Positions 2,462-4,950 of a stretch of 64,000 nt of DNA are shown piece after piece; positions within the stretch are counted from its first letter, which is position 1; each line of letters starts with the position of its first letter. The translations under genes were made by a program, and so were the position numbers. Where the stretch lies: NCBI GenBank assembly GCA_020735665.1, contig CP085928.1, positions 124,001 to 188,000 on the forward strand, given 5' to 3'. This DNA is from Lachnospiraceae bacterium GAM79. Lineage in GTDB: Bacteria > Bacillota > Clostridia > Lachnospirales > Lachnospiraceae. The notes below the pieces were generated by a model. The model searched no databases. It was given only the letters and a program-made list of their open reading frames with translations, and had not been told where the DNA came from.

Positions 2462-3286
2462 CTATAATACTTTCGAAAGGAAATCCTTCAGTCGAGGATT
2501 CTTCGGATTGCCAAAGAATTCTTCCGGCGTGCCGGTTTCAAGAATCTGTCCCTCATCGATGAAGAGGACTTTATTGGCAACCTCCTTTGCAAATCCCATT
2601 TCATGAGTAACCACGATCATGGTCATTCCCTCTTTTGCAAGATCCTTCATCAGGTCGAGAACTTCTCCAACCATTTCAGGATCAAGAGCAGAAGTCGGTT
2701 CATCGAATAGGATCACATCCGGATTCATAGCAAGAGCACGGATGATGGCAACTCGCTGTTTCTGACCACCGGATAAGGTAGAAGGATATACATCTGCTTT
2801 ATCTTCCAGACCGATCCGTTTCAGAAGTTCTTCTGCCTTTGCTCTTGCCTCGGCAACGATCTGAGATTTACTTGTTGTAATCTCTATTTTCTCCTGCTTC
2901 TCTTTGCGGAACAGGTTCGTAAGCGGAAGCATACGATTATGACGCTTCGCTTTTTTCAGATCCTGACAACGCACCAGTACAGGAGCAAGCATGATATTCT
3001 GAATAACGGTTTTGTTGTTATACAGATTAAAATGTTGGAATACCATTCCCATATGACGACGGTGGATGTTGATATCAACCTTTGGGTCTGCAATATCGAC
3101 ACCATTGAAGATGATCTGACCGCCTGTTGGGTCTTCCATACAATTTAAACAGCGAAGAAATGTACTTTTACCAGAACCTGAAGGACCGATTACAACCATT
3201 ATATCGCCTTTATCGATTGTGACATTGATGCCTCGTAAAACTTCATTGTCACCAAAGTGTTTTTCAAGATTAATGACGTCTATCAC
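2462..3286 (-). CDS. Polar amino acid ABC transporter, ATP-binding protein (GlnQ/ArtP type)
   Basis: This is the cytoplasmic ATPase of a polar amino acid importer. Its 274 residues contain Walker [10 protein letters not shown] near residue 34, the signature [15 protein letters not shown], Walker [15 protein letters not shown] and the switch histidine in VVTHEMGFA. The family is normally about 240-250 residues. The excess is a lysine/arginine-rich insert of roughly 35 residues between the Q-loop region ([14 protein letters not shown]) and the helix leading to the signature. The start at 3286 lies inside the 3' end of the permease gene (17-base overlap), so translation is coupled. It is the last gene of a three-gene minus-strand operon (binding protein, permease, ATPase). 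Confidence 0.92.
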
Positions 3287-3980
3287 TCTTTCTCAGGCTC
3301 CTTTCCATAAGTTTGATACCAAGGCTGATCAGAAGCACCATCACAATGTAGATCAGTGCCATAACCAGATATGGGATCATGAATTCGTAGCTGTTACTAC
3401 CAATATAGTTAAATGCTACATATAAGTCAGTAGCACCAACAAAGCTTACAACAGATGTTTCCTTGATCAAAGATATAAATTCATTTCCCAGAGTAGGAAG
3501 GATGTTTTTAACTGCCTGAGGAATCACAATCTTACGCATGGTCGTCGCAAAGCTAAGGCCCATGGCACGTCCGCCTTCCATCTGTCCGGGATCCACAGAA
3601 AGGATACCGCTTCGCATGATTTCGGAAATATAAGCACCACTGTTTAGACCAAATACAAGCATTGATACCTGTACACCGCTCATATGACCTCCTACGATAG
3701 GGAGCAGAACATAGTAAAACAGCAGTAACTGCACGACCATAGGAGTTCCACGGAAGAATCCGACATAGACGCTGCAGATTGCATCTAAAACTCGTGGCAG
3801 CCGTTTATATTTTGGAATGACGCGGACAGTTGCAATGATGGTTCCGATCAAAATACCGATGATCAGACCGATTATGGCGATGATAACGGTATTCTTCAGA
3901 CCTTCAACAACCTTTACATATCCTCTGTTATCAATGAATATTTCTATGAACTTTTGTATTTTACTTGAAATGTCTCCCAT
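3270..3980 (-). CDS. Polar amino acid ABC transporter, permease (HisM/GlnP family)
   Basis: This membrane subunit of the importer has 236 residues from the chosen start. It has about five hydrophobic segments and the EAA-type cytoplasmic loop [33 protein letters not shown], here split as [20 protein letters not shown] and the following [15 protein letters not shown], which docks on the ATPase. The longest frame starts at 4001, but the ATG at 3980 (MGDISSKIQ) follows AAAGGA at the correct spacing, so it is preferred. A GC-rich hairpin at 4011-4029 separates it from the binding-protein gene upstream. Confidence 0.92.
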
Positions 3981-4010
3981 GAAATATCCTTTCAATATCA
4001 TTTATTTTCT

Positions 4011-4029
4011 TCACGCGAGAAACGCGTGA
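4011..4029 (-). promoter_or_regulatory. Intercistronic hairpin between binding protein and permease genes
   Basis: TCACGCG and CGCGTGA form a perfect 7-base stem with a 5-base loop in the 65-base gap between the binding-protein stop and the permease start. There is no T-run, so it is unlikely to be a full terminator. Hairpins in this position commonly stabilise the upstream binding-protein mRNA 3' end and lower permease expression; that role is inferred here from position only. Confidence 0.55.
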
Positions 4030-4045
4030 TTCTTATAGCATATTT

Positions 4046-4918
4046 TTACTGCATAGCATTTAATGATTTTGTAATGGCAGCAGCAGGAGCTGAATCGATG
4101 ATAACATAATTTAAATTTCCGTTTAATAAATCCTGAACTGCAAGTGAACCGTTCTTATAACCGGTAGATGTCATCTTAAGACCAGCGAATCCCCAGTCAT
4201 CATCACCTTCGCAGTAGAACTGTCCGGTTGTACCTGTCTGGAAACCAATCTTGCTGCTTGAATCCTTAGCGTTAAGGATTGCATTTACATCATCGGCAGT
4301 CTTACATTCGTCAAATTCTGTGTTGTCTGATGGAACGATCAACTTCTGGGAAGCCTTGTAGTAAGAATCTGAGAAAGCTACATATTCTTCACGATCCGGC
4401 TTGATTGTAAGACCGGCCATAGCGATATCACATTTCTGCTGACCAACGGAGAGACATACAGCATCGAAATCCATGTTCTGGATAACCAGCTCCTTACCGA
4501 GTTTGTCAGCAAGTGCCTTAGCGATCTCCATATCGATTCCGTAGTAGTTCTCACCCTTTGTATACTCAAATGGTTCGAATGCAGCGTTTGTTGCTACAAC
4601 TAACTGATCCTTGCTTGAGTCTAATGTAGCTGATTCAACAGCAACAGGCTCGCCATCACCGAAGTAGTGGTTGCAGATCTCTTCAAATGTGCCATCTGAA
4701 TTCATATCTGCGATAAATGTATTAACCTCTTTTAATAAGTCAGGCTGTGTTTTGTCAACACCGAAAGCGTATTCCTCATCTGTGAGGTCAATCTCGATAA
4801 CCTTAGCAGTCTTCTTATCAGAAGATTTGCTGTCGTCAGTTTTGCTTCCGCATGCTGTTAATGCAGTCATAGCCAGGGCTGCAGACATAGTAATTGCTAA
4901 AAATTTTTTAAGTTTCAT
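4046..4918 (-). CDS. Amino acid ABC transporter binding lipoprotein, apparently circularly permuted
   Basis: This exported family-3 solute-binding lipoprotein has a signal peptide ending in the lipobox LTAC (mature Cys about residue 23). The domain order is unusual. Residues about 40-95 (EYAFGVDKTQPDLLKEVNTFIADMN.DGTFEEI..HYFG) match what is normally the C-terminal end of the family. The usual N-terminal start (LVVATNAAFEPFEY..YYGIDMEIAKALADKLG) follows only afterwards. The protein ends at VIIDSAPAAAITKSLNAMQ, just where the moved segment would normally begin. Two ATGs lie six bases apart; 4918 is better spaced from AAAGGAAG than 4924. It is the first gene of the operon with the permease and ATPase. 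Confidence 0.9.
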   Translation of the reverse strand: MKLKKFLAITMSAALAMTALTACGSKTDDSKSSDKKTAKVIEIDLTDEEYAFGVDKTQPDLLKEVNTFIADMNSDGTFEEICNHYFGDGEPVAVESATLDSSKDQLVVATNAAFEPFEYTKGENYYGIDMEIAKALADKLGKELVIQNMDFDAVCLSVGQQKCDIAMAGLTIKPDREEYVAFSDSYYKASQKLIVPSDNTEFDECKTADDVNAILNAKDSSSKIGFQTGTTGQFYCEGDDDWGFAGLKMTSTGYKNGSLAVQDLLNGNLNYVIIDSAPAAAITKSLNAMQ

Positions 4919-4950
4919 TTTCATTACTTCCTTTCATTCTTTTCTGAATA

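Follow-up and report, generated by a model that had tools for sequence, protein, structure and literature searches.

The window analysed here, a stretch of 64,000 nucleotides from Lachnospiraceae bacterium GAM79, carries on its minus strand a gene for a family-3 amino-acid-binding lipoprotein. The question raised by this gene is whether its product is a natural circular permutant, how such an order of segments could have arisen, and what it implies for a lipid-anchored binding protein (SBP). The segments of the canonical protein are named here in the order A-B-C (ABC), so that the window protein reads C-A-B (CAB); a third circular order, B-C-A (BCA), is found in relatives. We consider it very probable that the gene encodes a working family-3 amino-acid-binding lipoprotein, a natural C-A-B permutant derived from an A-B-C gene, with the fold kept and the anchor on lobe 2.

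Gene and segment order of the window protein

The open reading frame runs on the minus strand from 4924 to 4046 and has 292 aa when counted from its first ATG. A second ATG at 4918, the start given in the first-pass annotation, yields 290 aa and is probably the true one on sequence grounds, because it lies 8 nt from the motif GGAAG whereas the first ATG is only 2 nt away. The features of the gene and of the two genes behind it are as follows:

4046..4924, minus strand: CAB-order family-3 amino-acid-binding lipoprotein (open reading frame and translation, PF00497 in two stretches, swapped PDB matches)
4850..4924, minus strand: signal peptide and lipobox LTAC with the putative lipid-modified Cys25 (sequence; conservation of the Cys in orthologues)
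4808..4849, minus strand: spacer from the lipid Cys to the first folded strand, residues 26-39 (pLDDT <50 at residues 25-34)
4649..4807, minus strand: segment C, residues 40-92, the canonical C-terminal segment placed first (phmmer match to AncQR 183-233; model)
4607..4648, minus strand: linker from the old C-terminus to the old N-terminus, residues 93-106 (C-to-A gaps by HMM boundaries)
4331..4606, minus strand: segment A, residues 107-198, the canonical N-terminal segment (phmmer; invariant residues)
4049..4330, minus strand: segment B, residues 199-292, the rest of lobe 2 and new C-terminus (phmmer match to AncQR up to 176; invariant residues)
3270..4001, minus strand: permease of the window operon, BPD_transp_1, HEQRo type (Pfam, NCBIfam)
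2462..3286, minus strand: GlnQ-like ATPase of the window operon (NCBIfam PRK09493, 307 bits in two stretches)

The swapped order is observed directly in profile and structure-database matches. In a phmmer comparison with the PDB, residues 107-286 match AncQR 11-176 (73.9 bits) and residues 40-90 match AncQR 183-233 (17.3 bits), and the same swapped two-part match is obtained with 5t0w, 5tuj and 4f3p. PF00497 (SBP_bac_3) matches with 112 bits in total, against a gathering cut-off of 26.4, in two stretches that are also swapped; the N-terminal third alone matches profile positions 97-131 of 132. Judged by these matches, the protein is homologous to the SBP_bac_3 family and yet a permuted variant of it, since the canonical N-to-C order of PF00497 is not met. 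By homology, segment C corresponds to the part of canonical proteins that runs from the last strand of lobe 2 through hinge 2 into the terminal helices of lobe 1. The ligand residues N113, F116, F153, G171, T173 and R178 lie in segment A, while segment B carries Q229-TGTT and D277. At the level of sequence the protein thus qualifies as a natural permutant: the swapped pieces match one canonical protein, they stand in one intact frame, and the arrangement is kept in relatives, with a DNA comparison at a syntenic locus for a sister case (below).

The permuted order had been proposed in the first-pass annotation and is confirmed by the swapped phmmer and PF00497 matches and by the orthologues. 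Aligning the pieces separately, as had been suggested there, gives a result in agreement with natural circular permutation, and the same order was indeed recovered in relatives at 61-81% identity. One point has to be corrected: by homology, the break is not at the hinge but immediately ahead of the final beta strand in the small lobe (lobe 2).

Conservation and operon context

A scan of genome contigs found 80 orthologous loci with the C-A-B order in one open frame, mostly from Lachnospiraceae and with named isolates among them; the window type occurs across many genera of this family and in several other families. The 52 orthologues that were aligned share 61-81% identity with the window protein, and because the order is identical in all of them it lies far beyond chance. 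Eleven residues are invariant in the 53 aligned rows (N113, F116, F153, G171, T173, R178, Q229, G231, T232, T233 and D277), and Cys25 is kept in 51, the other two rows having gaps. Two of the invariant residues, R178 and D277, satisfy the expected clamp for an alpha-amino acid, with Arg for the carboxylate and Asp for the amino group, and are presumably equivalent to R75 and D157 of GlnH. No binding data are available, and it is only inferred that the ligand is likely to be a polar or neutral amino acid of the glutamine/cystine type. The window genome has a single other PF00497 gene, in canonical order, and no second permuted copy.

The SBP gene is the first of the operon and is followed by the permease and then by the ATPase; both lie directly downstream of it in 77 of the 79 orthologous loci scored. 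The combination of SBP, HEQRo permease and GlnQ-type ATPase meets the definition of a PAAT-type ABC importer operon. The window protein would supply the permease and ATPase encoded behind it, although no binding or transport data exist.

Some features of the neighbouring sequence were also recorded. The window ATPase has an insertion of approximately 35 aa (window 2864-2977, approximate limits) in the helical region between the Q-loop region and the signature motif. The stretch from Q-loop to signature has 22-49 aa in most scored orthologues of the window type versus 13 in most other scored relatives; many loci remained unscored by the pattern used. Between the SBP and permease genes, window positions 4011-4029 form a perfect 7-bp hairpin (TCACGCG-AGAAA-CGCGTGA), which lacks a trailing T-run on the minus strand and possibly protects the SBP part of the mRNA. 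No structured RNA element in the window was matched by Rfam.

Three circular orders in Clostridia

From profile matches, the family-3 SBPs of Clostridia exist in all three circular orders, ABC, CAB and BCA, each of which occurs as lipoproteins of one operon type. Classification with segment HMMs, which covers the loci retrieved up to that stage and not those added later, gave 132 distinct CAB, 55 BCA and 44 ABC proteins, three divergent canonical ones (AC) and one ABC-ABC-ABC-permease ORF. The odd partial matches of the first family-wide search (query 40-199 in frames of 270-300 aa) turned out to be BCA proteins. With a junction profile, the match begins at position 1 or 2 and extends to 160/161 in permuted genes, and mostly begins at approximately 47-70 in canonical ones, so that the two are clearly separated. 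In the Lachnospiraceae sample the profile matched in 150 of 397 genomes, of which about 122 have a permuted form by hand count, after subtraction of 26 canonical-only genomes, of G195 with its tandem triple and of G209, where the BCA gene is broken. A full match was counted by hand in about 58 of 391 genomes of the class sample, distributed over 19 families, and in the phylum sample, at a stricter threshold, in one genome outside the class. No BCA relative was found in viral contigs. Both permuted orders break lobe 2, and lobe 1 is never broken in this sample.

Several proteins depart from the simple lipoprotein. Tandem repeats were ruled out as the cause of the long frames, as all 18 further retrieved frames of 504-556 aa consist of a BCA domain fused to a permease. 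The only CAB fusion to a permease seen is L034 (4970-6596), where both are in one frame of 542 aa. The 651-aa ORF of L113 (G231:C17) has a serine/threonine-kinase-like part, an extracellular binding domain of CAB order and a membrane segment and, judged by these domains, is a kinase with a permuted SBP as its sensor. In L103 (G195:C2:248300-252200), a protein of 973 aa contains a permease and, fused to it, a tandem array of three canonical binding domains that are almost the same in sequence. Neighbouring genes of L258 (G112:C48) encode two different BCA binding proteins, and in L291 (G209:C50) a BCA-permease gene is split into two frames.

An in-place rearrangement in the genus g390

The genus g390 has a syntenic SBP-permease-ATPase operon whose SBP gene is ABC in L228 and CAB in L224 and L225. 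These three loci also agree in the identity and arrangement of their flanking genes; L226, also CAB, shares no more than the operon genes. The signal peptides are near-identical between the ABC protein and the three CAB proteins, and the identity of L228 to L224-L226 is 91-93% for A, 83-88% for B and 69-86% for C. A BLASTN comparison of L228 with L225 shows the relocation in the DNA itself. The upstream region and signal sequence are collinear (16-299 to 13-298), a C block of 149 bp that stands at the 3' end in L228 directly follows the signal sequence in L225 (875-1023 to 301-449), A-B follows collinearly behind it (335-864 to 502-1016), and the downstream sequence is collinear again (1066-1130 to 1060-1123). 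At this orthologous locus only the C block has moved, and the event is recent enough to be read at the DNA level between species of one genus. No remnants of the lost C were seen by eye in three-frame translations after the CAB stop.

The four g390 loci also share, between SBP and permease, an inverted repeat (GCGGAAATA...TATTTCCGC) that is conserved, has T residues behind it and is probably an attenuator.

Number of origins

A tree was calculated from 77 rows of approximately 217 columns, with all sequences rotated to A-B-C. The window-type CAB proteins form one clade (support 100/99), the CAB proteins L176/L177 adjoin a canonical protein of their own genus (100/99), and L169-L171, also CAB, adjoin the canonical L194 (100/98). 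Three groupings were rejected as single clades by AU tests: all CAB (p 0.0002), all permuted forms (p 0.0004) and the CAB proteins outside the window type (p 0.0036). One clade for all CAB or for all permuted forms is thereby ruled out; a single clade of all BCA was not rejected (p 0.116). The groups in these tests were defined by segment order and not from the tree, except for the division into window and non-window types. The simplest reading is at least three origins of CAB and at least one of BCA in Clostridia. The tree is weakly resolved in places and gives no direction of change, which is inferred; conversion between permuted orders is not excluded.

Predicted structure and inferred position of the lipid anchor

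An AlphaFold2 model made with 53 aligned sequences has a mean pLDDT of 87.8 and a pTM of 0.72. Segment C is predicted to form strands 40-43 and 50-57 and helices 61-76 and 79-88, as in the canonical C-terminus, with pLDDT mostly 93-98 over residues 41-80. The best Foldseek matches are family-3 amino-acid-binding proteins over approximately 170-230 columns; the alignment is only sequential and blind to the permuted parts. For this reason, and without coordinates, the place of segment C and of the termini in space is only inferred from homology, secondary structure and model confidence. The prediction, which the first-pass annotation had suggested as a check, agrees with natural circular permutation. 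The outcome that it named as a refutation, residues 40-95 lying off the C-terminal positions, did not occur, although the evidence on this point is indirect (pLDDT and secondary structure). Segment C, though moved, would still supply the terminal helices of lobe 1, hinge 2 and the last strand of lobe 2. Because it keeps these canonical elements, it is inferred that the protein retains both its Venus-flytrap fold and a cleft that accepts an L-alpha-amino acid. The old ends of lobe 1 would be joined by a linker of roughly 14-17 residues; by HMM boundaries the C-to-A gap has a median of 17 aa in CAB (range 17-25) and 21 in BCA.

When lobes and hinges are assigned as in GlnH, a mapping that we assume to hold here, the CAB break immediately precedes the last strand of lobe 2, and the BCA break immediately follows its first. 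Both permuted forms would then have their termini and lipid anchor in lobe 2, and lobe 1 would be one continuous stretch; the anchor is inferred to be on lobe 2 rather than lobe 1 because the new ends lie there. It is plausible, again by inference, that the permutation alters the geometry of the lipid anchor relative to the ligand cleft. The spacer from the lipid Cys to the domain, by HMM boundaries, has a median of 9 residues in BCA and 11 in CAB versus 18.5 in ABC; these medians are uncorrected for relatedness.

Origin and possible role of the permuted order

The most likely route, which is inferred, is an in-frame tandem duplication of an ordinary A-B-C gene, after which the first A-B and the last C were lost, the textbook model of circular permutation (PMC3320104). 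That this bacterial family has fused repeats is evident from the triple repeat of L103. The loci analysed did not include a C-A-B-C intermediate, and the duplication route is thus not demonstrated. That absence of a gene with C at both ends, and the fact that C alone moved in the DNA comparison, would suit an unlikely alternative, in which a fusion supplied segment C from a different gene and the protein's own C disappeared. Against such a fission/fusion, the segments of the g390 CAB genes are all highly similar to the ABC gene of the same locus (C up to 86%), and L194 is the nearest ABC relative for nearly all segments of the L169/L171 group. Still harder to support is a domain-swapped dimer in which segment C completes the fold of a neighbour: swapped elements have been reported for engineered permuted ribose-binding protein constructs (PMC10601554), but here a monomer is predicted with high confidence and the linker is inferred to be long enough to join the lobe-1 ends. 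A decayed or mis-assembled gene has nothing in its favour beyond the odd order and can practically be dismissed, being refuted by the orthologues: in many independent genomes, some of them from isolates, the order recurs in genes whose frames are intact and whose binding residues do not vary.

With natural permutation from an A-B-C gene as the preferred reading, it remains to be asked whether the new order is adaptive. It may be a neutral accident, with fold and function unchanged, the anchor irrelevant, and recurrence due to frequent tandem duplication of SBPs in Clostridia. This opposes an adaptive role and not the permutation itself, and we place it only a little short of an even chance: all three orders are found as lipoproteins of one operon type, closely related g390 species manage with either order, and a tandem triplicate exists. 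Against it, although neither point excludes neutrality, both permuted orders break lobe 2 and never lobe 1 in this sample, and the window type is kept across many genera and several other families. Possible, though less likely than not, is a recurrent and selected permutation that would move the tether from lobe 1 to lobe 2 through two converging break points, tuning the opening, closing and docking of the SBP on a homodimeric permease.

Comparison with known systems

Canonical family-3 SBPs (PF00497; GlnH, ArtJ, AncQR 4zv1 and TmArgBP) share with the window protein the sequence family, predicted fold elements, ligand residues and operon partners. They differ in having the order ABC with the anchor or N-terminus on lobe 1, whereas the window protein is CAB, with lobe 2 in this role by inference. 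The permuted family has been labelled as ordinary because profile-based annotation hides the order of segments. The tandem SBD-permease fusions of the GlnPQ type (6h30, SBD1-SBD2) have similar counterparts in Clostridia (L103, L107 and L273-L290). The fused domains of GlnPQ are canonical, while the classified fusions of Clostridia are BCA, apart from one CAB (L034) and one canonical triple (L103).

Natural permutation events in binding proteins are generally regarded as rare and old, without living intermediates. The Clostridia have one domain in all three orders side by side, within a single bacterial class, and permuted forms are present in about one third of the Lachnospiraceae genomes sampled. 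The literature searched, with thin coverage of subscription papers and preprints, contains no report of permuted family-3 SBPs. One permuted SBP of a different structural class was found as a precedent: TpMglB-2 (Tp0684) of Treponema pallidum, a natural circular permutant and bilobed ABC-transporter lipoprotein described as a "Type Ic / Cluster Bc" SBP, whose type occurs in spirochaetes and in Gram-positive, often gut, bacteria (PMC4990184). Its authors raise the possibility that membrane anchoring drove the new topology (PMC4990184).

The window protein resembles TpMglB-2 in being a naturally permuted bilobed lipoprotein of an ABC transporter. However, TpMglB-2 is a sugar-binding protein of Type I / cluster B with its break at the fourth hinge crossing, and the window protein is an amino-acid binder of Type II / family 3; a Type I / cluster B (MglB-like) fold is not met, as its Pfam and PDB matches are family-3 Type II proteins. 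Unlike TpMglB-2, the family-3 proteins of Clostridia occur in two permuted orders, have several origins and include a case in which the change took place in situ within one genus. With the DNA-level event in g390 and the coexisting orders, the mechanism and cost of permutation, and the question of tether fit posed for TpMglB-2, therefore become directly testable with replicated cases.
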